A program made the translations under genes and the position numbers. Shown one piece after another: positions 30,139 through 44,312 of a stretch of DNA of 49,600 nucleotides (its first letter is position 1; each line of letters opens with the position of its first letter). The notes beneath the pieces were generated by a model. It had not been told where the DNA came from and searched no databases. It worked only from the letters and a program-made list of their open reading frames with translations. This DNA is from Spartobacteria bacterium (GTDB lineage: Bacteria; Verrucomicrobiota; Verrucomicrobiia; Chthoniobacterales; UBA10450), in NCBI GenBank assembly GCA_003134785.1, contig PLCN01000006.1:1-49600 (forward strand). Reading direction: 5' to 3'.

Positions 30139-32565
30139 ATGTTTTTATCCAGTCTTCGCTTCGCCATTCGCTCGCTCGCGCGCAGCCCCGGGTTCACCCT
30201 CCTCGCCATCATCACGCTCGGGCTCGGCATCGGTGCTAATACCGCCATGTTCAGCATCCTCAACTCGATCCTGCTCAAACCGCTGCCCTATCCCGCAAGC
30301 GAGCAACTCGAGCGGATCGACCGCGCGACCGCGCAGAATCCCCAGGGAAGGATTTCGCCGGCCGACTTTCTCGACCTCCGGCGCGAGATGCGAACATATG
30401 GTGAGATTGGCGCCTATACGCTCGGCGACACCAGCCTGTTCGAACCTGGTCAACCGGCCGAGATGGTTCGCGCTCTGCGCATCACGTCGAATTTGCTTTC
30501 AGTGCTCCGCGTCCAACCGCAGCTCGGCCGCAATTTCCTGTCGCAGGAAGACCTCCCGGGAAACGACCGCGTTGTTATTATCAGTCAGCGTTGCTGGCAG
30601 CAGCGTTTCGGCGGCAGATACGATGTTGTTGGCCGCATTATCCGCGTCGATGGCGAACCTCATGAGATTGTGGGCGTCCTGCCCGCGTGGTTCAACGACT
30701 GGCGGCACTTGGGCCCGTTCGATTTCTTCCGCCCGCTAACATTCGACCAACAAAAATCCGCCGACCGCCGCAGCACCATCGTACGGCCCATCGGTCGCCG
30801 CGGCGACAAGCTCTCGCAGGCTGAAGCGGCCGGCTTTATTGCCAACTTCGGTGCGCGCCTCGCCGCCGATTTCCCTGAGGTCAATGCCGGGAGTACCTGG
30901 CGTGCAATCCCGCTCAACGGCACAGCCCTGCCGAGCAGGGCCCTCATCATGATGGCGATGCTAATCGGCCTTTCCGGTTTTGTGCTGCTGATCGCTTGCT
31001 CCAATCTCGCGAACCTTCTCCTCGCCCGCACCATGGCGCGCGCGCGGGAATTCGCCGTCCGTTCCGCCCTTGGCGCTTCGCGCGCGCAATTGTTGCGCCC
31101 GTTAATGGCCGAGTCGCTCTTGCTGGCCATTGCCGGTGGGGCCTGCGCGGTGCTTGTCGCACGGTGGGCCGCCGATTGGCTCTCCGTTCGAACCATCGGA
31201 GAGAACGGCGAACGCTTAGTGTTCGCCTTTGACTGGCACGTATTCGGCTGGGCGTTTGTCGCCTCGCTTGTCACGGCCATCGCGTTCGGCCTGGCACCGG
31301 CGCTCTTCGCGCTACGGCTGAATGTAAACGACACACTGAAGAGCGGCGCGCGTGGCATGAGTGGGGGTCGCGGTCATCAACGTTTTCGCCACGGTCTCAT
31401 CGTCGGCCAGTTTACGCTCGCGATGGTGTTGCTGACTGGGGCCGCGCTTTTTGCCCGCGGTCTCGATGAGTTGAATAACACTCACGCCGGCTGGCAATCC
31501 GAACATGTTGTCACCGGAACAGTGGTGCTCCCGGCCGCCGGCTACCCCGATGCCGACAGAATTAACGCCTTCCACCGGGTCACGCTCGAGCGGCTGCAAG
31601 CCATCCCCGGCGTGGCATCGGCCAGCGTTTGTTCCTTCGCGCCTTTCTTTAACTGGGGAGATGTCCGCAAGTATCTCATCGAAGGCCGCGAGCGTCCCCA
31701 ACCCGGTCGCGAACCCGCTGCCGTCGTTAACAGTATTACTCCACGTTATTTCGACACCTTCGGCACCCGTCTGCTCGCCGGACGCTTCTTCAACGAAAGT
31801 GACAGCCAAACTTCGCCTAAGGTTTTCATCATCAGCCAGTCGATGGCGGTGGCGCTATTTGGGAGCGAAAATCCGATCGGTCACCGTCTCGCTCAAACCG
31901 GTATCGGAAATAATTCGCAATGGGGCGAAATCGTTGGTGTGGCGGCCGATGTAAAATCGATTCTCCCAGATCCAGGGCCGGTGACCTTTCAACTTTACCA
32001 GCCCATGACTCAGGACCCGCAGCCTTACAGCCAGATCGCCGTCCGCACCAGCGGTGTCGCGCCTTCCACCCTCCTGCAAAGTATCCGTAGCGTTATGACC
32101 GAACTGGATGCCGATTTGCCGGTCCGCCAGCTCGAACCCGGCGACACGACGATCGAACGCGCCAACACGCAAACCGCCATCATGCGCGACATGCTTACCG
32201 CGTTCGCCCTCCTCGGCCTCGGCCTTGCCACGTTAGGTATTTATGGCGTTATCGCTCGCACGATGGCTCAACGCACCGGCGAGTTTGCGATTCGCTTCGC
32301 GCTGGGAGCCAGCGTCAGGGACATCACTCGCATCGTTCTGACTTCTGGCGTGAAGCTGGCGCTGCTCGGCTCGGCTCTCGGTTTACTCGGTGGAGTAGGT
32401 CTTTCCCGACTGCTCGCTGTCGCTTTTCCCGGCATGCGCCTCAACGATCCCTTGATATGGATCGGCGCTACCTTCCTGCTCATCGCCGTGGCCTTGGTCG
32501 CATCCTGGCTCCCCGCTCGCCGCGCCGCGCGCATCAACCCGATCGAGGCGCTCCGTGCGGAGTAA
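30139..32565 (+). CDS. Orphan duplicated FtsX/MacB-type permease (ADOP family)
   Basis: An 808-aa protein. The N-terminus FLSSLRFAIRSLARSPGFT, then LGLGIGANTAMFSILNSILL and KPLPYP is the signature of the acidobacterial duplicated orphan permeases. There are two MacB-like periplasmic domains and two FtsX modules of four helices (first near residues 270-420, second near 680-805, ending ARRAARINPIEALRAE). No ATPase is fused or next to it; the nearest is the unrelated YtrB-type one. Such proteins are thought to move lipids, peptides or antibiotics, or to transmit tension in the envelope. The role here is unknown. Start fits SD-less ATG after a short gap. Confidence 0.9.
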   Translation: MFLSSLRFAIRSLARSPGFTLLAIITLGLGIGANTAMFSILNSILLKPLPYPASEQLERIDRATAQNPQGRISPADFLDLRREMRTYGEIGAYTLGDTSLFEPGQPAEMVRALRITSNLLSVLRVQPQLGRNFLSQEDLPGNDRVVIISQRCWQQRFGGRYDVVGRIIRVDGEPHEIVGVLPAWFNDWRHLGPFDFFRPLTFDQQKSADRRSTIVRPIGRRGDKLSQAEAAGFIANFGARLAADFPEVNAGSTWRAIPLNGTALPSRALIMMAMLIGLSGFVLLIACSNLANLLLARTMARAREFAVRSALGASRAQLLRPLMAESLLLAIAGGACAVLVARWAADWLSVRTIGENGERLVFAFDWHVFGWAFVASLVTAIAFGLAPALFALRLNVNDTLKSGARGMSGGRGHQRFRHGLIVGQFTLAMVLLTGAALFARGLDELNNTHAGWQSEHVVTGTVVLPAAGYPDADRINAFHRVTLERLQAIPGVASASVCSFAPFFNWGDVRKYLIEGRERPQPGREPAAVVNSITPRYFDTFGTRLLAGRFFNESDSQTSPKVFIISQSMAVALFGSENPIGHRLAQTGIGNNSQWGEIVGVAADVKSILPDPGPVTFQLYQPMTQDPQPYSQIAVRTSGVAPSTLLQSIRSVMTELDADLPVRQLEPGDTTIERANTQTAIMRDMLTAFALLGLGLATLGIYGVIARTMAQRTGEFAIRFALGASVRDITRIVLTSGVKLALLGSALGLLGGVGLSRLLAVAFPGMRLNDPLIWIGATFLLIAVALVASWLPARRAARINPIEALRAE

Positions 32566-32611: not shown

Positions 32612-33304
32612 ATGCAGACTTACGCAAGAATTGCCGGAGTGTTATTCCTGTTCTCTTTTATCGCGGGCGGCTTCGGAGAGGCCTACGTTCCGTCCCAGCT
32701 CATCGTGGCCGGTGACGCTGCGGCCACGGCGGGAAACATCAAAGCCTTTGGTTCATTGTTCCGCTGGGGCTTTGCCGGTTACCTCGTAGAGGCCGTCTGT
32801 GATATTGGGCTGTCGTTGACCTTTTACATGTTGCTCAGACCTGTCCGCAAAGATATCGCGCTTCTCGCCGCCTTCTTCGGGCTGGTCGGCACGGCCGTCT
32901 TTGCCGCCGCCGAGCTCTTTTACCTTGCCCCTTCACTCATCCTGCGAGGCGACAGCTATTTGAAGACCTTCTCGACTGATCAACTCAACACTCTCGCGCT
33001 GCTGTCCCTCAAGTTGTTTGCCTATGGTGGTGCGATGTTCACAGTGCTCTACGGCGTGGCCTGGGTCCTACGCGGTTACTTAATCTTTCGATCGGGCTAT
33101 CTTCCCAAATTTCTCGGCGTTCTTATGACGTTCGGTGGTCTCGGATTTATCATGAGGAATTTTCTGCTCGTCCTTGCGCCGGCCTACGCATCCGACGGCC
33201 TTCTCTTGTTGATGGTGCCAGGGGGACTGTCACTGGCCGCGTGGCTGCTCGTGAAGGGCGTGAACGAACAACGATGGAATCGGCAAGCCTCGTTAGGCAC
33301 ATGA
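32612..33304 (+). CDS. DUF4386 membrane protein, copy 1
   Basis: The start at 32612 (230 aa) begins MQTYARIAGVLFLFSFIAGG, as typical of DUF4386. Hydrophobic helices lie near residues 6-26, 50-75, 90-120, 135-160 and 175-220, and the C-terminus ends LLVKGVNEQRW then QASLGT. The conserved YVPSQLIVAGDAAATAGNI loop after the first helix is present. DUF4386 has no known function. It ends in an ATGA overlap with the first anchored oxidoreductase, so the two are surely co-translated; the same pair is repeated at 35596-37436 and is fused at 37466-39718. Confidence 0.85.
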   Translation: MQTYARIAGVLFLFSFIAGGFGEAYVPSQLIVAGDAAATAGNIKAFGSLFRWGFAGYLVEAVCDIGLSLTFYMLLRPVRKDIALLAAFFGLVGTAVFAAAELFYLAPSLILRGDSYLKTFSTDQLNTLALLSLKLFAYGGAMFTVLYGVAWVLRGYLIFRSGYLPKFLGVLMTFGGLGFIMRNFLLVLAPAYASDGLLLLMVPGGLSLAAWLLVKGVNEQRWNRQASLGT

Positions 33305-33345
33305 AAATAAAACGAATAATAAAGTGGACTGCACGCGCACTGTTG
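33241..33345 (+). repeat. Long direct repeat at DUF4386/oxidoreductase junction, copy A
   Basis: This stretch of about 105 bp covers the last codons of DUF4386 copy 1 and the first codons of oxidoreductase 1. It matches 36261-36365 at roughly 90 percent of positions by eye (GTGAAGGGCGTGAACGAAC, ACGATGGAA, CAAGCCTCGTTAGGCA, ATGAAAATAAAACG, TAAAGTGGACTG). The rest of the two gene pairs is much more diverged, which points to block duplication with later local conservation or gene conversion. Confidence 0.85.
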
Positions 33346-34416
33346 TTCGCCTTAATATTGGCGTTTCTGTGCGGGTTCATCGCCTACTGGACTTCGACTA
33401 ACGACTGCGGACGCACCATTCCTGCCGGAGCTGAGCGGATGAAAGCGATCAAGTATTGCGAATACGGCTCGCCGGATGACGTTCTGAAGCTGGAACAAGT
33501 CGAAAAGCCGGTTCCGAACGACGACCAGGTCCTTGTCCGCGTTCGCGCCGTTTCCCTCAGGTTTTATGACGGTGGCATGCTGGAAGGCGGTATCGGTAGA
33601 CTAATCTTTGGACTTCGGAAGCCAAAAAATACCATCCCGGGATCTGATTTCGCCGGAACCGTTGAAGCGGTCGGCCGGAACGTGACTGAATTCAAGCCAG
33701 GCGATGAAGTCTTCGGAGTAAGAGCAGGTGCTCTGGCCGAATACATCTGCGTTAGGCAGGCTGGAGCAATCGCTCTGAAGCCGGCTAACACTAACTTCGA
33801 GCAAGCCGCCTCGATCCCTACCGCGCTGGTATCTTTGCAGGGTCTGCGCGATACGGGGCGACTGCAAAAAGGCCAGAAGGTCCTGATCAATGGTGCCTCG
33901 GGTGGTGTCGGGACATTTGCCGTCCAGATCGCCAAGGCTTTCGGCGCGGAAGTGACCGGCGTTTGCAGCACCAAAAACCTGGACCTGGTCCGATCGCTCG
34001 GTGCCGATCACGTGATTGATTACACTAAAGAGGACTTCACCAAGGGCGAAGCGCGTTACGACGTAATCTACGATCTGGTCAATAATCGGTCCTTTGCGGA
34101 ACGGCGCCGCATTCTCAAGCCTGGCGGCATCTGTGTCCTGGCCGGTATCGGCGGCTCAGGAATGCACAAGGACACCTTATCGAATCTGGCAGGCGAGCTT
34201 ACTGCTTCGTTGCGCTCAAAATTCGGGAACGAGAAATTTGTTCTCTTCGGCGTCGACATTAACAAGAAAGACCTCGGCGTTCTCCGCGACTTGACTGAGA
34301 GCGGGAAAGTGTTGCCCGCTCTGACCAAGACTTACCCGCTCACTGAAACCGCCGCGGCCTACAACTACCTTGAGACCGGCCATGTCCAGGGGAAGATCGC
34401 GATTACAATCGAATGA
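33301..34416 (+). CDS. Membrane-anchored MDR oxidoreductase (quinone-oxidoreductase-like), copy 1
   Basis: The ATG at 33301 overlaps the upstream stop (ATGA). 371 aa. The N-terminus MKIKRIIKWTAR is basic, then comes a helix (ALLFALILAFLCGFIAYW) and TSTNDCG; by the positive-inside rule the enzyme would be outside the cytoplasm. The MDR domain begins at MKAIKYCEYGSPDDVLKLE, with GSDFAGTVEAVG and FKPGDEVFGV. The NAD(P) fold is VLINGASGGVGTFAVQIAK, then GAEVTGVCST and LGADHVIDYTKEDF. There is no catalytic-zinc GHE motif, so it is of the zinc-free quinone reductase type. Two Cys (in TNDC and KYCEYG) are shared by copies 1-3. The substrate is not known. Confidence 0.87.
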   Translation: MKIKRIIKWTARALLFALILAFLCGFIAYWTSTNDCGRTIPAGAERMKAIKYCEYGSPDDVLKLEQVEKPVPNDDQVLVRVRAVSLRFYDGGMLEGGIGRLIFGLRKPKNTIPGSDFAGTVEAVGRNVTEFKPGDEVFGVRAGALAEYICVRQAGAIALKPANTNFEQAASIPTALVSLQGLRDTGRLQKGQKVLINGASGGVGTFAVQIAKAFGAEVTGVCSTKNLDLVRSLGADHVIDYTKEDFTKGEARYDVIYDLVNNRSFAERRRILKPGGICVLAGIGGSGMHKDTLSNLAGELTASLRSKFGNEKFVLFGVDINKKDLGVLRDLTESGKVLPALTKTYPLTETAAAYNYLETGHVQGKIAITIE

Positions 34417-35537
34417 CGCTCCTTAAGCGGATTCTTAAATGGATAGGTATCGTCATGTTAGCCGTGGTGTTGGCAGGCGGGATCTATCTCTTTGTCTCTT
34501 ACTGGACTTCTACAAATGATTGCGACTCAAGAACCGGCCCACCCACTAATCCTATGAAAGCTATTCGTAAGTGCGAATACGGTTCCCTGACGCTGCGGGC
34601 CGTGGAGAAGCCAATCCCCACCGACGATCAGGTCCTGATCAAAGTTCGCGCCGCGTCTCTCAATGCCGCCGACGGGCACCTACTCCGCGGCTCCTTCGTA
34701 ATGCGTCCCATCACCGGAATGCGGAAGCCAAAGGATTCACGCTTCGGGATCGATTGCGCGGGGACGGTGGAGGCGGTGGGGAAGAATGTCACCCAATTCA
34801 AACCAGGTGATGAAGTTTTCGGCGCGGCTAATGGAACGATCGCCGAGTATGTCTGTGCTCCGGCACGAACATTGGTGACGAAGCCAGATAACGTCACGTT
34901 CGAGCAGGCGGGCTCCGTCGCAGTGGCCGGACTTACGGCGCTGCAAGGTCTTCGCAACCAGGGAAACATTCAGCCCGGACAAAAGGTTCTCGTCAATGGC
35001 GCCTCCGGAGGAGTAGGTACGTTCGCGGTGCAGATCGCGAAGGCATTTGGTGCAGAGGTAACCGCCGTCTGTAGCCCTAGGAACCTGGAACAGGCCCGAT
35101 CAATCGGCGCCGACCACGTCATCGACTACACGAAAGAGGACTTCACCGTAGGCAATCAGCGTTACGATACGATTTTCGACAACGTTGGGAACCATACCAT
35201 TGCCGAGCGCCGGCGCGTCCTGGCTCCGAACGGCATCTGTGTCCTGGCTGGAATGGGCAGCGCCGGAAAGCACGAAGGCCAGTGGTCGCGCCTGGCTGGC
35301 AATCTAAAATCCTTTTTCGTGTCGCCGTTTATCTCCCAGAAGTTCAAGTTCTTCATCGGCAAGGTCCTCCAGGCAGACCTGGCCGTGCTGCGCGACCTGA
35401 TGCAGGAGGGCAAGCTGAAGCCCGTTATCGACCGCGAGTATCCGATGAGCAAGACCGCGGAAGCTCTCGATTACCTGGAAGAAGGCCACGCCCGCGGCAA
35501 AGTAGTGATTACTGTGGAACAGGACAACAAACTCTAA
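34413..35537 (+). CDS. Membrane-anchored MDR oxidoreductase, copy 2
   Basis: 374 aa, starting with ATG at 34413 in an ATGA overlap with copy 1. It has the same build: basic MTLLKRILKWIG, one helix (IVMLAVVLAGGIYLFVSYW), STNDCDSRTGPPTNP, then MKAIRKCEYGS. The core has CAGTVEAVGKNVTQFKPGDE, VLVNGASGGVGTFAVQIAKA and IGADHVIDYTKEDF. The N-terminal strand of the catalytic domain is shortened (EYGSLTLRAVEKPIP compared with EYGSPDDVLKLEQVEKPVP). It ends 58 bp before DUF4386 copy 2. It is a tandem paralogue not followed directly by its own DUF4386, perhaps formed by a separate duplication. Confidence 0.87.
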   Translation: MTLLKRILKWIGIVMLAVVLAGGIYLFVSYWTSTNDCDSRTGPPTNPMKAIRKCEYGSLTLRAVEKPIPTDDQVLIKVRAASLNAADGHLLRGSFVMRPITGMRKPKDSRFGIDCAGTVEAVGKNVTQFKPGDEVFGAANGTIAEYVCAPARTLVTKPDNVTFEQAGSVAVAGLTALQGLRNQGNIQPGQKVLVNGASGGVGTFAVQIAKAFGAEVTAVCSPRNLEQARSIGADHVIDYTKEDFTVGNQRYDTIFDNVGNHTIAERRRVLAPNGICVLAGMGSAGKHEGQWSRLAGNLKSFFVSPFISQKFKFFIGKVLQADLAVLRDLMQEGKLKPVIDREYPMSKTAEALDYLEEGHARGKVVITVEQDNKL

Positions 35538-35595
35538 CAATGCGCGAGATGAACCGAACGGGCTTATTTGAATCACTCCCGCAAGGAAAACAAGT

Positions 35596-36324
35596 GTGAG
35601 CACAGTTATCATGACGAGACGGATTGCAGAAGCGTCGCCGCGTTTCAAGGCCAGAATGGCTGGCCTCTCCTATTTGCTTGGAGCCTTGACCTCAGTTCTT
35701 GGTCAAATGGTTATTCTTGGCATGCTCGTTGTGCCCGGCAATGCGACCGCGACGGCGGCCAGCATCCTTTCGCACGAGTCTCTGTTTCGGCTGGGATTCG
35801 TGGCTTCCCTGATGACTGTGCCGTTCCATCTCCTTTGGGCGGCTCTTTTCTATGGCCTCTTTAAGCCGGTCAATAGGAGCGTCTCGTTACTCGCTGGGTT
35901 TATCATGCTCCTGGGATGCGCGATGTGGGCCCTCAGCAGTCTTTTTCAACTCGCCCCCTTGCTTGTCCTGCAAGGCAAGAGCTCCTTGAGCGCATTTGCA
36001 CCCGAACAGTTGCAGGCTCTGGCGCTCATGCTTCTCAAATTGAATGCGCAAGCCTACGACATCGGCCTGGTGTTCTTCGGATTATGGTGTGTCCTGGTCG
36101 GCTACCTCATTTTCAGGTCAACCTTTATGCCTCGAATTATTGGCGTGCTGGAGGTTTTTGCCGGCCTGGGTTACCTGACTCTTCTGTGGCGGCCGCTCGC
36201 ACACTATTTGTCTCCATATAACCTTGCGCTGGCCGGCCCCGGGGAAATATCGCTGATGCTGTGGCTCCTCGTGAAGGGCGTGAACGAACAACGATGGAAA
36301 GAGCAAGCCTCGTTAGGCATATGA
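35596..36324 (+). CDS. DUF4386 membrane protein, copy 2
   Basis: 242 aa from GTG at 35596 (AAGGAAAA about ten bases upstream); ATG at 35611 or 35656 are alternatives. It shows the family's first helix (MAGLSYLLGALTSVLGQM), the VVPGNATATAASIL loop and a C-terminal LLVKGVNEQRWKEQASLGI almost identical to copy 1. The stop overlaps the start of oxidoreductase copy 3 as ATGA-like spacing. It forms the second DUF4386-MDR unit. The function is unknown. Confidence 0.85.
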   Translation: MSTVIMTRRIAEASPRFKARMAGLSYLLGALTSVLGQMVILGMLVVPGNATATAASILSHESLFRLGFVASLMTVPFHLLWAALFYGLFKPVNRSVSLLAGFIMLLGCAMWALSSLFQLAPLLVLQGKSSLSAFAPEQLQALALMLLKLNAQAYDIGLVFFGLWCVLVGYLIFRSTFMPRIIGVLEVFAGLGYLTLLWRPLAHYLSPYNLALAGPGEISLMLWLLVKGVNEQRWKEQASLGI

Positions 36325-36365
36325 AAATAAAACGAATATTAAAGTGGACTGGACGCGCGCTTTTG
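36261..36365 (+). repeat. Long direct repeat at DUF4386/oxidoreductase junction, copy B
   Basis: The partner of 33241-33345; it covers the same part of the second DUF4386-MDR pair, including the identical block CAAGCCTCGTTAGGCA before the ATG. Confidence 0.85.
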
Positions 36366-37436
36366 GTCGTCTTGATATTGGCGTTCCTGTGGGGGTTCGT
36401 CGCTTATTGGATGTCGAGTAATGACTGTGACCGCGAAACCGGTGCTCCGGTCAATCCTATGAAAGCCATCGTTCATTGTGAGTATGGTGGACCCGAAGTT
36501 CTGAGGTTGGCAGACGTTGAGAAGCCGGTGCCGACAGACAACCAGGTCCTCGTGAAGGTTCACGCGGCTTCCTTGAATCCGCTGGACCTGACAATTCGCG
36601 GGCCGTTATTAATCCGCCCGATCCTGGGGATGCGTAAACCGAAAGATACTCGGCTAGGCGTCGACTATGCAGGCACAGTTGAAGTCGTCGGCAAGAATGT
36701 GACCCAGTTCAAGCCTGGCGACGAAGTGTTCGGTGGAAAGAACGGAGCCATGTCCGAGTATGTATGCGTCCTGCCCGACCGCGCGGTCACGCTTAAACCC
36801 GCTAACGTGACGTTTGAGCAGGCGGCTTCTGTCCCGGTAGCAGCAATCACCGCGCTCCAGGGCCTTCGCGACAAGGGAAAAATCAAGGCCGGACAGAAGG
36901 TCCTCGTCAATGGCGCATCGGGAGGCGTGGGCACCTTTGCCGTGCAGATAGCGAAATCGTTCGGTACGGAAGTCACTGCCGTCTGCAGCACGCGGAATGT
37001 CGACATGGTTCGATCGATCGGCGCAGACCATGTGATCGACTACACGAAGGAAGACTTCACGCAAACCGATCAGCGGTATGACTTGATCTTTGACCTGGTC
37101 GGGAACCATTCGTTCTCCGAGCGCCGGCGGATTCTGACTCCGAATGGCATCTGTGTCATGGCCGGGCTTGGGGGAGCAGGGTGGCACGATGGTATGGCGG
37201 GGCGCCTCCTTGGTGAGCTCAATGCCTACCTGGGATCCTGGTTCGTGAACCAGAAGTTCATCGCCTATATCGCCGAATTCAACAAGGCGGACATGGCTAT
37301 CCTTGCTGACCTGATGCAGAATGGTAAGATCACTCCCGTCATCGATAAGACCTACAAGTGGAACGATGTCCCGGCCGCTCTCAGCTACCTGGAAACAGGC
37401 CACGCCCGGGGAAAAATAGTGATTACTGTGAACTAG
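36321..37436 (+). CDS. Membrane-anchored MDR oxidoreductase, copy 3
   Basis: 371 aa from ATG at 36321. Its first 14 codons are nearly identical to copy 1 (MKIKRILKWTGRALL). Helix VVLILAFLWGFVAYW, then MSSNDCDRETGAPVNP and MKAIVHCEYGGPEVLRL. The MDR core is complete: LGVDYAGTVEVVGKNVTQF, VLVNGASGGVGTFAVQIAKS, CSTRNVDMVRSIGADHVIDY and a C-terminal YLETGHARGKIVITVN. No zinc ligand set. Its Cys pair (NDC and HCEYG) matches copies 1 and 2. It is followed after 29 bp by the fused copy. Confidence 0.87.
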   Translation: MKIKRILKWTGRALLVVLILAFLWGFVAYWMSSNDCDRETGAPVNPMKAIVHCEYGGPEVLRLADVEKPVPTDNQVLVKVHAASLNPLDLTIRGPLLIRPILGMRKPKDTRLGVDYAGTVEVVGKNVTQFKPGDEVFGGKNGAMSEYVCVLPDRAVTLKPANVTFEQAASVPVAAITALQGLRDKGKIKAGQKVLVNGASGGVGTFAVQIAKSFGTEVTAVCSTRNVDMVRSIGADHVIDYTKEDFTQTDQRYDLIFDLVGNHSFSERRRILTPNGICVMAGLGGAGWHDGMAGRLLGELNAYLGSWFVNQKFIAYIAEFNKADMAILADLMQNGKITPVIDKTYKWNDVPAALSYLETGHARGKIVITVN

Positions 37437-37465
37437 GTCAAACCCGACTGCCGAAACGGAGACAC

Positions 37466-39718
37466 ATGGACTCAGTCAAGAAACAAGCGCGGTTCGCGGG
37501 GCTCCTCTACCTGTTGGCCTGCCTTCCCGCTCCCTTTGCCCTGCTTTATGTTCCCGGTAAGCTAATTGTGCCGGGAGATCCAACCGCTACGGCTGCTCAT
37601 CTCCGAGCTTCTGAGACCCTTCTTCGCCTCGGCATGGCGGGCGAATTGATCAATGCGGTCGCCTTTATCTTCGTGGTTTTCGCGCTCTACCGGTTGCTCA
37701 AGGATGTGAACAAGCACCAGGCCGCCGTCATGGTGACCTTGTTTGTAGTTTCCGTTCCTATTTCATTTTTCAATGTCCTCAACGACGTGGCCGCGTTGCT
37801 CGTGGCTAATGGGACCGGTTACCTGTCCGCATTCGAACAGAGCCAGCTGGACGCGCTGGCTTACCTGTTCCTGCGTTTGCATAGCCATGGTTTTCTCGTT
37901 GCTCAAATCTTCTGGGGCCTTTGGCTGTTCCCGTTCGGACTCCTTGTTATTCGGTCCGGTTTCATCCCCCGCGTCCTGGGGTTCCTGCTGATCATAGCCT
38001 GCTTCGGCTACCTCGCGGCCAGTTTCACGTCCCTGCTTCTCCCTCGGTATGGACATCTTGTCTCCAGCGTCGCGATGATTGCTGAGGGCCTGGGAGAATT
38101 ATCCACCGTGCTCTGGTTGCTCATCTGGGGGGCGAAAGCGCCGCCAGTAACAGGCAATCCGTTATTGCCAGCGCTGCCTGAGTTTCAGATCATTATTCCA
38201 ATCGTCGCTCTTATGAAAACACACCTGCAAATCCTTGCCATCACCTCCTGCTTTCTGTTTACTAAGGCAGGATGGGCTCAGACACCAAATCCAAGTCCTA
38301 CTCCAGCCCCACGGATGAAAGCCATTGTCTATAGCGACTTTGGTTCACCCGACGTCCTGCGGCTTGAAGAAATCGAAAAGCCTGTTCCTTTGGACAATCA
38401 ACTCCTGATCAGAGTGCGTGGAGCTTCGGTCAATCCACTCGACTGGCATTACATGGAAGGCACGCCCTACCTCGGTCGCCTGGTAGAGTTTGGGCTCCTC
38501 AAACCAAAGGTCACGCGATTAGGCGTTGACTACGCGGGGACGGTTGAAGCGGTGGGCAAGAACGTAACGCAGTTCAAACCGGGCGATGAGGTCTACGGAA
38601 ATCGTTTTGGCGCTTTTGCCGAGTATGTAGTTGCTTCGGAAAAGGCATTGGCCTTGAAACCGGCTAACCTGACTTTCGAGCAGGCGGCTTCAGTGCCTGT
38701 GGCGGCAGTCACCGCATTGCAGGCTCTTCGCGACAAGGGACACGTGCAGCCGGGGCAGAAGGTCTTGATTAACGGAGCCTCGGGAGGCGTGGGTACCTTC
38801 GCGGTGCAGATCGCCAAGTCGTTCGGCGCGGAGGTGACCGGTGTCTGTAGTGGCAGGAATGCGGAGATGGTTCGTTCAATCGGCGCGGATCACGTCATTG
38901 ATTACACGAAAGAGGATTTCACAAAAAGCGACCAGCGTTACGACCTGATTATCGATAACGTTGGGAATCGCTCGTTGTTGGAATGCCACCGCGTCTTAAA
39001 TCCAAGGGGGATAGAAGTCATAATTGGAGGCGGAGGAGTAAACGACGGACGCTGGACCGGTCCGCTGGTTGGTGTGCTAAAAATGCTGGGGCTGAAACCG
39101 TTCGTGACCCAGGAGATGAGCATGATGCTCGCGGAAATGAACAACAAGGACCTCACCATCCTGGCCGATCTCATCCAGACCGGAAAGGTGAAACCGGTTA
39201 TCGACAGGACCTATCCGTTCAGTCAGCTCCCCGAGGCTCTCCGATACCTGGAAGAAGGGCACGCCCGGGGAAAAGTAGTAATAACTGTCGGAGATAACAA
39301 CGAAGCCTTGTCCGTTAGTCCCAAAGTCGCCGCGACCTCAGCTAGCTCTCCCCCACCTGCTTTCGTTGCTTCTGTGCTCATCGGCGTCCCCCTTGCCGTG
39401 TTAATCCTGCCGATTGTAGTCGCATTCGTTCTCAATCGTCGTTTCCGGCAGCGTAATCCAGACAAGCGGGGCTACAGGTGGGGCTACTACTTTAGCATTA
39501 TGTCGTTCATCCACGGCCTTGGTCTCGGCGCCTTCCTTGAATCCGGCGCCACGGCCGTGATCGTCTGCGGCCTCATTTACGCGGTCCTCGCCTGGTTCTT
39601 CGCCCAGCGTTGCCACTGGGCTTGGATCGCGCTGACAATCTTGAGCTTCAACCCTATCGCGTGGATCATCAATGCTATCTACCTTCGGAAGCGCTGGGCG
39701 GAAGGCTCCGTCTCATAA
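37466..39718 (+). CDS. DUF4386 - signal-like segment - MDR oxidoreductase - membrane tail fusion
   Basis: 750 aa from ATG at 37466. Residues 1 to about 225 are a third DUF4386 domain (MDSVKKQARFAGLLYLL, YVPGKLIVPGDPTATAAHLR). Then at residue 250 begins MKTHLQILAITSCFLFTKAG and WAQTPNPSPTPAPR, which on its own would be a perfect signal peptide. The MDR domain follows from 284 (MKAIVYSDFGSPDVLRLEEI) to about 609 with VLINGASGGVGTFAVQIAKS. A further four-helix tail (from FVASVLIGVPLAVLILPIVV) ends the protein. No stop separates the parts. It is either a true fusion made by losing a stop, or two cistrons with internal start at 38213, where no ribosome binding site is seen. The Cys pair of copies 1-3 is absent in this one (YSDFG). 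Confidence 0.83.
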   Translation: MDSVKKQARFAGLLYLLACLPAPFALLYVPGKLIVPGDPTATAAHLRASETLLRLGMAGELINAVAFIFVVFALYRLLKDVNKHQAAVMVTLFVVSVPISFFNVLNDVAALLVANGTGYLSAFEQSQLDALAYLFLRLHSHGFLVAQIFWGLWLFPFGLLVIRSGFIPRVLGFLLIIACFGYLAASFTSLLLPRYGHLVSSVAMIAEGLGELSTVLWLLIWGAKAPPVTGNPLLPALPEFQIIIPIVALMKTHLQILAITSCFLFTKAGWAQTPNPSPTPAPRMKAIVYSDFGSPDVLRLEEIEKPVPLDNQLLIRVRGASVNPLDWHYMEGTPYLGRLVEFGLLKPKVTRLGVDYAGTVEAVGKNVTQFKPGDEVYGNRFGAFAEYVVASEKALALKPANLTFEQAASVPVAAVTALQALRDKGHVQPGQKVLINGASGGVGTFAVQIAKSFGAEVTGVCSGRNAEMVRSIGADHVIDYTKEDFTKSDQRYDLIIDNVGNRSLLECHRVLNPRGIEVIIGGGGVNDGRWTGPLVGVLKMLGLKPFVTQEMSMMLAEMNNKDLTILADLIQTGKVKPVIDRTYPFSQLPEALRYLEEGHARGKVVITVGDNNEALSVSPKVAATSASSPPPAFVASVLIGVPLAVLILPIVVAFVLNRRFRQRNPDKRGYRWGYYFSIMSFIHGLGLGAFLESGATAVIVCGLIYAVLAWFFAQRCHWAWIALTILSFNPIAWIINAIYLRKRWAEGSVS

Positions 39719-39824: not shown

Positions 39825-40643
39825 ATGTTTGGATTGATGAAAAAAGAGGCACACTTGCCCTCACCACCCGTGTCTGATCTTGTTCGCGTTAGGTATCCAT
39901 TACACTCAAGCCCTATGCGCACCTATCTCGGATCGGTAGCCATCTTCTGCGTTATGAGCACGACGTTCCTCCTGGAACTTGCGAGAAATGCGGCCGGAAA
40001 TGATGCGCGTCTCCTTGGCCTCGGCGCTCTACCCGATAGCGGTCAGATTCATTACGAATACTGGCGTCTGCTCACGGCCGGGTTCTTACATTACGATCTC
40101 ACACATTTCGCGCTCAATACTCTTCTCTTGCTCTTGGTCGGACCCGTTGTCGAACTCCGCGCTGGGACCACGTCGCTCCTCCTTATCTTTCTGGGCGGTT
40201 CGGTGGCGAGCTGCGCAGGGATCCTCATGAAACATCTTTTCTGGCCTTCGCAGGGCGTCTCGCTCGGCGCGTCGGGCGGACTATTTGCCCTCCTGGGGGC
40301 CGGGCTCGTGTTGGTCTTCAGGCTTTCCTCACAAAGTCGCTTGGTTCGACTCCGTCTCCTGGTCCCGCTCTTCTTGGGACTAACCTACTCAGTGTTACCA
40401 CGCGTTACCATGATCGGGCATGTCGTAGGCTTGGTTGTCGGGACCGCAGTTGCACTCGCGCTCCCTTTGAATGCAGCCTCGCCGGTGCTCGCCGGTGCTC
40501 GCCGGTGCTCGTGCCTCGAGTTCCAGATGAACGGCATCCTTACATCTCTGCGCCAGCGCGCCGTCAACGTGAAGCCGGACGAGCTGCGCGCGCTCGGCCT
40601 CGCCTTCGTTTTCAACTTCGTCGTCCTCGGGAGTTATTCATGA
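39825..40643 (+). CDS. Rhomboid-family intramembrane serine protease with foreign C-terminal tail
   Basis: 272 aa if started at ATG 39825, which directly follows the REP element; ATG at 39837 or 39915 (MRTYLGSVAIF) may be the true start. Six helices. The active site GASGGLFALLG has Ser150 and the late helix GHVVGLVVG has His199; FLHYDLTHFALN is the family's HxxxN-type helix-2 motif. It cleaves membrane proteins; substrate unknown. The domain ends near residue 215. The last 50 residues come from a 10-bp triple repeat and the beginning of an MFS gene (MNGILTSLRQRAVNVKPDEL), so the natural stop appears lost. Its stop overlaps the next gene as ATGA. Confidence 0.8.
   Translation: MFGLMKKEAHLPSPPVSDLVRVRYPLHSSPMRTYLGSVAIFCVMSTTFLLELARNAAGNDARLLGLGALPDSGQIHYEYWRLLTAGFLHYDLTHFALNTLLLLLVGPVVELRAGTTSLLLIFLGGSVASCAGILMKHLFWPSQGVSLGASGGLFALLGAGLVLVFRLSSQSRLVRLRLLVPLFLGLTYSVLPRVTMIGHVVGLVVGTAVALALPLNAASPVLAGARRCSCLEFQMNGILTSLRQRAVNVKPDELRALGLAFVFNFVVLGSYS
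40481..40510 (+). repeat. Three tandem copies of a 10-bp unit
   Basis: GCCGGTGCTC is repeated three times without gaps. Because 10 is not a multiple of 3, each gain or loss of a unit shifts the reading frame of the rhomboid tail. Confidence 0.95.
40528..40643 (+). pseudogene. 5' stump of a second Npt/MFS-type carrier gene
   Basis: From the ATG at 40528 the frame reads MNGILTSLRQRAVNVKPDEL then RALGLAFVFNFVVLGSYS. This matches the start of the intact carrier that follows (VVAIEPREMRSIAWSWLYFF). It is cut where 'YFVLRPIRD' would be expected and joined to the start of the intact gene. It is now read as the tail of the rhomboid frame. I infer a deletion inside a tandem pair of carrier genes. Confidence 0.65.
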
Positions 40644-42079: not shown

Positions 42080-42353
42080 CCGTGAGAGCGCCAGCATCGC
42101 GGCACACGCGATCAGCCTCGTACGCGCAATCAGGTTTATGATTTGCGGCAGCTTCTGACGCGGGGGGCTTCGCGAACTCGAACGACCTATCCGTCAACAT
42201 CACCTTGAGCCACACCGATCTTATGCCATCGCAATAAATGATGATGCTGGAAGAGGGCCGTTCCGCCAGCGCCGTAAGATTTCTCAATTCTTTTTGTCTT
42301 GCTCGCGCGAACGATGGTCGTTAGACCGGATGGAAACGGCCGTCGTTTCTACC

Positions 42354-44312
42354 ATGAAAACAAAAAACAACATCAGCGTCGCAGCGTTATTATTTCTGCT
42401 TTGCGCATTCACGCGCGCCGAAGCGCAATTGAGTTACAGCGTTACCGACTTAGGAACTCTCGGTGGCACGACGAGCATAGCCAACGGCGCCGCCGGTCCG
42501 GGGCCCAACGCGGCCGGAATGATTGTCGGATCCTCGACCTTAAGTGACAACACCGAGCACGCATTCCTTTACGTCGGCGGCCAGATGTACGATCTCAACA
42601 CGTTGTGCGATCTTTCTCTGAGCGACTTCACGGTCCTGACGGTGGCGAAGACGATCAGCGACTCATGCCTCATTATTGGCGAGGGCGTTACGAATGCGGG
42701 TGAGAAACACGCCTTTTTGCTGACGCCCACGCCGATCGATGGCGGGCAATGGTCGTATGTTTGCTGTCAATGGGTTTGGATCCAGGAAGGTGGCGGCTGG
42801 TGGTGGGAAACGAGTTGCCATTGTTACAAGTGGCATGGCCCTCCCGGGAATCACCCGCCCTGTCCCCCCCAGCCCCCCCATTGCTGGTGGTGGCCCCTTC
42901 CCTGTCCGCCGGACTGCGGTTGCCCGCCGCCTCCTCCTCCGCCTAACTATTGCTGGTGCTGTATCAAAGGACACATCCTCCTGATCCCGCAGGAGGAATG
43001 CAAGGCCAAGGGTGGCCAATGTTACGCTTCCAAAGAAGAGGCGATCAAGAATTGCAAGCCCTGCTGGTGCTGCCTTGGCGAACGCGTGGTCCAGACCACG
43101 TGGGCCGACTGCCAGGCGAAGGGTGGTCAATGTTATGATTCGCCGGAACAAGCGAAGAAGAATTGTGGGAAGCTTTGCTGGATCTGCCTGGACGGAAAAG
43201 TCGTGCAGGTGACCGAGGCGCAGGCCCTGGAGAAACACGTCAAATGCTACCCGTCGCAGGACGAAGCGCGGCAGAATTGTGGGAACCTTTGCTGGGTTTG
43301 CCTCGACGGACAGGTCGTCCAGATTCCCGAGGCTGAGGCCAAGGCGAAAGGCCTTCGCTGTTACGCTTCCAAGGAAGAGGCGCAGAGGAACTGCGAACAG
43401 AAACTTTGCTGGGTTTGCATCGACCGACAGGCCGTTCAAATCCCCGAGGCTGAGGCCAAGGCGAAAGGCCTTCGCTGTTACGCTTCGAAGGAAGAGGCGC
43501 AGAGGAACTGTGAACAGAAACTTTGCTGGGTTTGCCTTGACGGAGAGTCCGTTCAGATCCCCGAGGCTGAGGCCAAGGCGAAAGGCCTTCGCTGTTACGC
43601 TTCCAGGGAAGAGGCGCAGAAGAACTGTGAACAGAAACTTTGCTGGGTCTGCCTTGACGGAAAAGTCGTTCAACTCACCGAGGCGCAAGCCAAGGAGAGA
43701 GGCGTTCAATGTTATGCCTCACAAAAAGAAGCGCAGAGGAATTGTATAAACAAACTTTGCTGGGTCTGCCTGGATGGAAAAGTCGCTCAGCTCACTGAGG
43801 CGCAGGCCAAGGCGAGAGGTCTTCCCTGTTATGCTTCCAAAGAAGAAGCGCAGAGGAATTGTGGAGGAAACACAGACACATCTTGCTGGGTCTGCATTAG
43901 CGGAAAAGTCATTCAGCTCACCGCGGCGCAGGCCCGGGCCAGAGGCGCTAAATGCTATGCTTCACAAGAAGAAGCGCAGCAGAATTGTAAACAGAAGACC
44001 GTTTGCTGGACCTGCGTTAGAGGAAAAGTCGTTCAGCTCACCGAGGCACGGGCCAGAGCCAGCGGGGCTCAATGCTATTCTTCCAGAGAAGAAGCGCAGC
44101 AGAATTGTAAACAGACTACAGACAAAACTTGCTGGACCTGCGTTAGCGGAAGAGTCGTTCAGCTCACCGCGGCGCAGGCCCGGGCCAGAGGCGTCCAATG
44201 TTATTCTTCCAGAGAAGAAGCGCAGCAGAATTGTCGTAGCGAAAAGCCGACGCCGCGGCCGCGAAGCACACCACCTCGGACCAATCGCCAACTACCGCCG
44301 GGACCTAGGTAA
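42354..44312 (+). CDS. Exported protein with HAF repeat and eleven CWxC cysteine repeats
   Basis: The start is set at ATG 42354 (652 aa), which begins a signal peptide (MKTKNNISVAALLFLLCAFT, cut after AEAQ); the frame is open 60 bp further upstream. Residues 31-110 hold HAF-type repeat sequence (TDLGTLGGTTSIANGAAGPG, GMIVGSS, EHAFLYVGG). Residues about 125-199 are Trp-, Cys- and Pro-rich (QEGGGWWWETSCHCYKWHG, HCWWWPLPCPPDCGCPPPPP). Then eleven tandem units of 35-42 aa follow from residue 200 to about 627. Each has CW-x-C, then VVQLTEAQA, then CY-x-S-x-EEAQ-x-NC, four Cys per unit. Units 4-6 are nearly identical in DNA, which shows recent amplification. The end is a Pro/Arg-rich tail. No family known to me. 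Confidence 0.85.
   Translation: MKTKNNISVAALLFLLCAFTRAEAQLSYSVTDLGTLGGTTSIANGAAGPGPNAAGMIVGSSTLSDNTEHAFLYVGGQMYDLNTLCDLSLSDFTVLTVAKTISDSCLIIGEGVTNAGEKHAFLLTPTPIDGGQWSYVCCQWVWIQEGGGWWWETSCHCYKWHGPPGNHPPCPPQPPHCWWWPLPCPPDCGCPPPPPPPNYCWCCIKGHILLIPQEECKAKGGQCYASKEEAIKNCKPCWCCLGERVVQTTWADCQAKGGQCYDSPEQAKKNCGKLCWICLDGKVVQVTEAQALEKHVKCYPSQDEARQNCGNLCWVCLDGQVVQIPEAEAKAKGLRCYASKEEAQRNCEQKLCWVCIDRQAVQIPEAEAKAKGLRCYASKEEAQRNCEQKLCWVCLDGESVQIPEAEAKAKGLRCYASREEAQKNCEQKLCWVCLDGKVVQLTEAQAKERGVQCYASQKEAQRNCINKLCWVCLDGKVAQLTEAQAKARGLPCYASKEEAQRNCGGNTDTSCWVCISGKVIQLTAAQARARGAKCYASQEEAQQNCKQKTVCWTCVRGKVVQLTEARARASGAQCYSSREEAQQNCKQTTDKTCWTCVSGRVVQLTAAQARARGVQCYSSREEAQQNCRSEKPTPRPRSTPPRTNRQLPPGPR
42951..44233 (+). 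repeat. Eleven coding tandem repeats of about 117 bp
   Basis: Unit starts (TGCTGG codons for Cys-Trp) recur from 42951 to about 44130; unit length is 111-126 bp. Units 4, 5 and 6 share long exact blocks such as GAGGCCAAGGCGAAAGGCCT. Length variation is in whole codons only and lies in the linkers between units (CGKL, CEQKL, CGGNTDTS, CKQTTDKT), while the Cys spacing within a unit is kept. Confidence 0.9.

Follow-up and report, generated by a model that had tools for sequence, protein, structure and literature searches.

Introduction

Can an enzyme that depends on NADP work outside the cytoplasm? NADPH is a cytoplasmic cofactor, and the NADP-dependent Rossmann enzymes are taken as cytoplasmic for that reason. 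The question is raised by a 49,600-nucleotide stretch of DNA from a Spartobacteria bacterium (contig PLCN01000006.1), hereafter called the window. At 32612–39718 it carries, all on the + strand, three genes for DUF4386 membrane proteins and four genes for medium-chain dehydrogenase/reductase (MDR) enzymes, a class that is normally intracellular.

A first-pass annotation proposed from the letters of the window that these MDR enzymes may work outside the cytoplasm. Here, we followed up the proposal with homologues, structure models and composition tests. The host genome is 4.39 Mb long (G000 in our set, with the window on its contig C6), and the named genomes closest to it are metagenome-assembled genomes (MAGs) of Spartobacteria, Verrucomicrobia and Candidatus Udaeobacter. 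The four genes probably encode exported enzymes tethered to the membrane, members of one MDR clade of the quinone-oxidoreductase/RTN4IP1 kind, with a C36–C53 disulfide in copies 1–3.

Results

Two export devices in one clade

Copies 1–3 each begin with a basic tail, followed by one hydrophobic segment, the motif YW[TM]S[TS]NDC and then the domain starting with MKAI..CEYG. The best 17-residue Kyte-Doolittle means are 2.61, 2.55 and 2.62, respectively, above our limit of 1.9 for a hydrophobic segment. Hydropathy, motif and Pfam thus agree with the order of basic stretch, one helix and enzyme that had been read from the letters. The three starts overlap in ATGA with the stop codons of a DUF4386 gene, copy 1 and another DUF4386 gene, so the basic tails are well-placed N-termini.

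Copy 4 is built differently. Its Sec-like signal starts at 38213 and leads through a linker rich in Pro to the MDR domain, which is followed by a helical C-terminal membrane domain of about 115 residues reaching 39718. Its hydrophobic stretch scores 1.88, just below the limit; signals were judged by eye, and by eye the segment is Sec-like, in line with the signal-peptide-like segment first proposed. The annotation had ended copy 4 at 39290 and overlooked the membrane domain. A Pfam search with this domain gave no family above the cut-off. In the copy 4 model, most of the signal has pLDDT below 50 and the C-terminal helices are predicted at modest confidence (block pLDDT mostly 45–78).

Homologues were taken from the genomes of relatives (matches in 26 of 58, own genome included, at E ≤ 1e-60), of the family (52 of 83, up to four matches per genome), of the window's phylum (11 of 337 at 1e-50), of the phylum of an Acidobacteria MAG (37 of 347 at 1e-80) and of that of a Deltaproteobacteria-labelled MAG (30 of 195), and from a contig scan (79 loci). 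The scan used YW[TM]S[TS]NDC as one of two patterns and its rows are biased to the motif, whereas the genome-search rows are unbiased. Among the 224 distinct homologous domains, 172 entered the tree. Left out were 51 soluble rows below 290 bits and one fragment (L134; L numbers are our locus handles) with Cys53 but no N-terminus. The tree alignment held the domain without its N-terminus and first ten residues, so the second Cys discussed below was excluded.

All 87 export-type rows of this kind are set apart by a single branch (SH-aLRT 99), the inner forks being partly unsettled. They consist of 74 rows with the helix and both Cys, seven with a signal and the C-terminal domain, five YAWATG-type rows and L139. 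The YAWATG-type rows have a helix, then Y-A-W-[AV]-T-G-A-R-Q-E, and no Cys. A signal-like N-terminus is common to the copy-4-type relatives L092, L109, L121, L122, L123 and L170; by eye, these signals are short and end in small residues before Q.

Unlike the usual MDRs, 78 of the 87 clade rows have a segment over the hydrophobicity limit. The other nine are L092, L109, L170, window copy 4, L131 (two), L157, L121 and L156, namely five signals or helices just under the limit, two lower-scoring signals and two rows damaged or truncated at the N-terminus. Sub-limit rows with Cys were placed in the exported group by motif (L131 twice, L157, L156 and L121, the last two with the N-terminus cut or damaged) and those with signals by eye (window copy 4, L092, L109, L170 and L188).

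Charge around the membrane segment

Among the Cys rows, K/R average 4.31 in the N-tail ahead of the helix, compared with 1.49 in the 15 residues after it. The excess on the N-flank is found in 67 of the 72 scored rows, with equality in three and the reverse in two. The YAWATG-type rows have 7.0 K/R before the helix and 1.0 after it, with the N-flank greater in all five. In copies 1–3, an uncleaved helix with its N-terminus inside would leave the enzyme attached to the inner membrane at its outer face.

In copy 4, a basic loop NRRFRQRNPDKRGYRWG follows the first helix of the C-terminal domain and is similar in the relatives shown. This loop, by the positive-inside rule, argues for the MDR domain of the copy-4-type rows being outside. 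A cleavable Sec-type signal and the C-terminal membrane domain would then give the same placement as in copies 1–3 without a disulfide.

The main rival is that the enzyme is cytoplasmic. The helix, being N-out or lying in the membrane, would tether it to the inner face, and the Cys would be free or bind something else. The flank charge runs against this, as do the signal-like N-terminus with the basic loop in the copy-4 type and the all-or-none Cys pair described next. It draws on NADPH being cytoplasmic, on the fully conserved NADP motif, on the retained other Cys, including C222 beside the NADP site, and on a domain composition not shifted to that of exported proteins. We consider a cytoplasmic enzyme unlikely.

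An all-or-none cysteine pair

The two Cys of copies 1–3 are residues 36, 37 and 36 in NDC and residues 53, 54 and 53 in CEYG. Copy 4 has neither of them, and one separate Cys lies inside its signal. This presence and absence, which the annotation had noticed in the four copies, extends to the whole clade: 74 rows have both Cys, 13 have neither and none has only one. The clearest case is L139, which reads YWTSTNDY...YRDYG, keeping the motif and the fold with Y in place of the first Cys and R in place of the second.

Both Cys states are concordant in 172 of 172 tree rows, window copies included, where only the Cys of the motif following the anchor counted as the first Cys, so that the soluble rows lack it by definition, and the lone signal-peptide Cys of window copy 4, L122 and L005 was left uncounted. 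Given this concordance, the pairing is not due to chance. At position 53, none of the 83 soluble tree rows has Cys (residues such as T, D, H, R, P and E occur there), and neither does any of the 51 soluble rows outside the tree. Parsimony on the tree requires five changes for each Cys.

The S and N of Y-W-x-S-x-N-x-C are present in 74 of 74 motif rows, which were chosen by a looser form of the motif that every row with Cys53 and an intact N-terminus passed. The spacing between the two Cys is 14–18, and 17 in 52 of the 74 pair rows. C53 is followed by an acidic residue in 79 of the 87 exported rows (E in 51, D in 28). In the model of copy 3, C36 is predicted in a short helix (35–38) and C53 right after the first strand (46–51). 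A disulfide between C36, just after the anchor helix, and C53 would fix the domain to its anchor.

The host genome encodes the machinery for disulfides: VKOR and Thioredoxin_4 (DsbA-like) have three matches each. Two VKOR/Thioredoxin_4 pairs adjoin each other, at 111707–112755 of contig C25 and 32157–33130 of contig C24. In mycobacteria, DsbA and VKOR are described as introducing disulfides into exported proteins (PMC12421883).

These genes, the close spacing of the all-or-none pair and the acidic residue after C53 would also suit an outside enzyme whose Cys pair exchanges electrons with it, either as a redox-active dithiol or as a metal site. The variable spacing and the lack of a CxxC speak against such a site, and the pairless forms retain the same domain. 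Moreover, no further Cys column strictly tracking the pair was found in the alignment, in which His columns were not searched. We regard a dithiol or metal site as quite improbable.

A second disulfide, C149–C278, was considered and rejected because its partners are not strictly paired. The 74 Cys rows have both in 44 cases, C149 only in 21, C278 only in three and neither in six. C278 is enriched in the clade, in 50 of 87 rows versus 8 of 83 soluble ones. The Cys outside the pair are fewer in the pairless forms, with 2.8 in the YAWATG type, 1.86 in the signal form and 1.0 in L139.

Fold and NADP site

All four copies match ADH_N (PF08240), ADH_zinc_N (PF00107) and ADH_zinc_N_2 (PF13602) above the Pfam cut-offs. 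These MDR families are their sole Pfam matches, with no Gfo/Idh/MocA domain among them. The copies score 161–187 bits with the PIG3 model (TIGR02824), below its curated cut-off of 296.8; by this score they are related to the PIG3 subfamily but not members of it. Their nearest relatives, the only basis of this placement, would put them in the non-zinc quinone/enone oxidoreductase branch.

The best solved relative of copy 3 by sequence is human RTN4IP1 (2vn8). An AlphaFold2 model of copy 3, made with a 69-row alignment, has a mean pLDDT of 93.7 and a pTM of 0.90, and it begins with a predicted helix at residues 2–31. Its best fold matches in the Protein Data Bank are 5a3j (Z 40.1), 3tqh (Z 39.4) and 2vn8 (Z 38.4), and those listed have Z of 34–40 across about 295–319 residues.

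The NADP motif is intact in the clade. All 87 exported rows have G201-G202-V203-G204-T205-F206; S223 is found in 86 of them and R or K at 225, after the second Rossmann strand, in 80. The RTN4IP1 counterpart of this glycine stretch is described as its NAD(P)H binding motif (PMC10830421). The ratios of nonsynonymous to synonymous substitution rates (dN/dS) are 0.12–0.13 for copy 1 and 0.19–0.20 for copy 2 with their L126 counterparts, 0.08–0.15 for copy 3 with those of L125 and L122, and 0.21–0.24 for copy 4 with that of L122. All four copies are under purifying selection.

The conserved motif and these dN/dS values bear on another alternative, that the exported copies have ceased to be NADP enzymes and the MDR fold is reused outside as a binding or structural protein. 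The invariant glycines, S223 and R/K225 contradict it, as does the purifying selection. No periplasmic source of NADPH is known, which favors such reuse, and no consistent Tat motif speaks for the carrying of bound cofactor. On balance, we find a reused fold improbable.

Evidence weighing against export

Several results weigh against the enzymes being exported. Twin-arginine (Tat) export was rejected because the N-tails have no consistent motif, although the genome has TatC. Of 57 scorable N-tails, 15 have RR, 36 KR and six neither; a loose RRx-hydrophobic pattern occurs in eight and S/T-RRx-hydrophobic in none, and only L109 has RR among the seven copy-4-type signals. Export with the cofactor loaded, as in glucose–fructose oxidoreductase (GFOR), is therefore not indicated. 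MDRs passing through Sec must obtain NADP outside, and nothing in the data explains how.

The flank charge of the copy-4 type gives no support, with the N-flank greater in one of seven, equal in two and smaller in four, and four of its seven signal segments are below the hydrophobicity limit. C222, a neighbor of the NADP site, is retained in all but one of the 87 exported rows. The Cys besides C53 are not depleted, at 3.14 per domain in the Cys rows versus 3.12 in the soluble ones, whereas signal-peptide proteins in the genome sample have 0.59% Cys and cytoplasmic ones 1.00%. Of the five changes that parsimony requires for each Cys, the starred branches of the tree force just one, so the five are not five proven independent events.

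Even Cys numbers were not in excess among the 87 proteins predicted to have a signal peptide (19 even, 26 odd and 42 none), a count with heuristic signals, home-made gene calls and lipoprotein Cys included. A composition classifier without Cys was trained on proteins from 0.8 Mb of the genome and the window, 73 with a signal peptide and 367 cytoplasmic. Its cross-validated area under the curve was 0.80–0.93 and its training medians were +1.44 (exported) and −1.53 (cytoplasmic). Exported MDR domains score like soluble ones by it, with medians of −0.79 (Cys rows) and −0.76 (Mann-Whitney p 0.83), in a comparison that has no known exported Rossmann enzyme as a control. The signal-peptide form has a median of −1.21, and L005 and L188, the two rows of a second exported-looking lineage, have a higher one of 0.39.

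The proposal of the first-pass annotation, enzymes at work outside the cytoplasm, thus stands only in part. The location is supported by the two export devices, the N-flank charge, the C-terminal loop of copy 4, the Cys pairing and the DsbA-like and VKOR genes; composition, the kept Cys and the Tat result speak against the proposal. Taken together, an extracytoplasmic location remains likely, and the enzymes may be active there.

Distribution of the clade

A Candidatus Udaeobacter MAG is among the named relatives in the family that carries the clade, and this group is described as dominant in soil (PMC7343977). Of the 11 matching genomes in the window's phylum, three belong to the family; in the remaining eight, the match starts at residues 43–47 or 42. 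Outside the family, the anchor and both Cys are found at L200, L201, L202 and L209, at least four of the 26 loci whose N-termini were compared, among at least 30 loci from the search in the phylum of the Acidobacteria MAG. The search of the phylum of the Deltaproteobacteria-labelled MAG found them only in L026/L189 itself, and misbinning of L026 is possible because the contigs are mostly from MAGs.

An Acidobacteria relative of L026, at 3001–3804 of L046, lacks both Cys; its anchor is degenerate and its domain is interrupted by an in-frame TAG. An anchored MDR in Actinobacteria was rejected, since the match on a Nonomuraea plasmid (H3), seemingly starting from residue 8, has a stop in frame before the domain. 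A second and distant MDR lineage also looks exported, with signal-like N-termini and no Cys pair. It consists of L188 and L005, the latter in the host genome itself (contig C16, 1246–2322, − strand). About 2 kb from L005 on C16 lies another MDR copy (L006), whose match contains a stop codon.

Locus layout

The coordinates are collected in Table 1. With the ATGA overlaps at copies 1, 2 and 3, the units look translationally coupled. A fusion of the third DUF4386 gene with copy 4 is doubtful; the two are in frame in the window, yet stops separate the corresponding pair at L122. At L123, the gene upstream of the copy-4-type MDR is of a different kind, not DUF4386.

Table 1. MDR and DUF4386 genes of the window and parts of copy 4
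Feature	Position	Strand	Remarks
DUF4386 membrane protein	32612..33304	+	Pfam PF14329, E 1.2e-46; 4-base overlap with copy 1 start
MDR copy 1, 371 aa	33301..34416	+	Predicted anchor helix at about residues 11–30; Cys36 33406–33408; Cys53 33457–33459
MDR copy 2, 374 aa	34413..35537	+	Predicted anchor helix; Cys37 34521–34523; Cys54 34572–34574
DUF4386 membrane protein	35596..36324	+	Pfam PF14329, E 3.3e-46; 4-base overlap with copy 3 start
MDR copy 3, 371 aa	36321..37436	+	Predicted anchor helix; Cys36 36426–36428; Cys53 36477–36479
DUF4386 membrane protein	37466..38212	+	Pfam PF14329, E 2.9e-51; open in frame into copy 4
MDR copy 4, 501 aa from ATG at 38213	38213..39718	+	Signal-like N-terminus, MDR domain 38315–39290, membrane domain at C-terminus; Cys pair absent
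Sec-like signal peptide of copy 4	38213..38278	+	Judged by eye; pLDDT <50 in model
C-terminal membrane domain of copy 4	39356..39700	+	Predicted helices 382–414, 423–441, 446–466, 469–477, 481–496

In 83 cases from the window and 40 loci of relatives, the gene next upstream of an MDR is DUF4386 in 30 and another MDR in 27, as counted with home-made gene calls. The others are another gene (17), a locus edge (four), a gene on the opposite strand (three) and a permease of the kind at 30139–32565 of the window (two). That DUF4386 is a partner of the MDR enzymes would be a guess. A search of a literature collection gave no paper on DUF4386.

The junctions between DUF4386 end and MDR start at 33241–33336 and 36261–36356 are identical in 89 of 96 bases, as if the copy 1 and copy 3 units had been recently duplicated or converted. 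Near the MDR/DUF4386 units at L121, L125, L127, L130, L132, L136, L138, L159, L167 and L169 lie genes that we take to be a GntR-type regulator and/or ABC ATPase-like. Directly 3′ of the MDR island of the window is a rhomboid-family protein (39825–40643; PF01694, E 9.6e-22).

Farther on, the frame at 42294–44312 (+) has a signal-peptide-like N-terminus and then about 12 Cys-rich repeats (C-W-V-C-L-D-G ... C-Y-A-S-x-E-E-A-Q-x-N-C), and its product is probably a secreted disulfide-rich protein. Long frames of degenerate tandem repeats, putatively coding only, are at 238–798 and 1252–2514 of the window.

Discussion

The same fold, across residues 41/47–371 with Z of 37–40, is shared with RTN4IP1/OPA10 (2vn8), the Arabidopsis chloroplastic gamma-ketol reductase (5a3j), the Coxiella quinone oxidoreductase (3tqh) and a strawberry enzyme (4ida). 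RTN4IP1 has a VLxxGASGGVG stretch in common with the exported MDRs and is described as transferring electrons from NADPH to dichlorophenolindophenol (PMC10830421). The compartments differ, as RTN4IP1 is in the mitochondrial matrix and 5a3j is chloroplastic. Moreover, the anchor and Cys53 are in none of the 83 soluble rows compared.

GFOR export reportedly depends on its twin-arginine motif and cofactor binding. The GFOR of Zymomonas, described as periplasmic, and the aldose–aldose oxidoreductase (AAOR) of Caulobacter are likewise NADP-type enzymes with export signals (PMC4628093). According to the same source, they are of the Gfo/Idh/MocA family with Tat signals. In contrast, the fold here is MDR, no Tat motif is consistent and the anchor is mostly uncleaved.

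Rieske proteins have a single N-terminal anchor helix. One of them, Bacillus QcrA, resembles copies 1–3 as an exported redox domain with a disulfide described as mattering for its stability (PMC6708511). Its domain carries an iron–sulfur cluster, uses Tat export and has no nicotinamide, unlike the exported MDRs. The mycofactocin-linked nicotinoproteins hold a non-exchangeable NAD and are described as needing another electron carrier (PMC3023750). They may be a model for how an enzyme works without free NADPH, and the cited passage does not describe them as exported (PMC3023750). A literature search for MDR or quinone oxidoreductases with a signal peptide or in the periplasm gave no exported MDR enzyme in the titles and abstract beginnings of the papers listed.

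If the topology is real, the exported MDRs would bind NADP(H) outside and reduce or oxidize quinone-like or enone-like compounds near the membrane. The cofactor would then be either permanently held or drawn from NADP(H) present in the periplasm. A bolder idea is that the outer face of the inner membrane has a nicotinamide redox system of its own. In it, several MDRs with bound NADP per genome, translationally coupled with DUF4386, would pass electrons or cofactor across the membrane. We hold this extension to be speculative and hardly probable.

The periplasmic exceptions compared, GFOR and AAOR, have a different fold and Tat signals (PMC4628093). Here, an MDR clade with export signals is found in one Verrucomicrobia-type family and some Acidobacteria. 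It raises the questions of whether a Rossmann enzyme exported by a non-Tat route gets and uses NADP outside, and of what supplies its electrons outside the cytoplasm.

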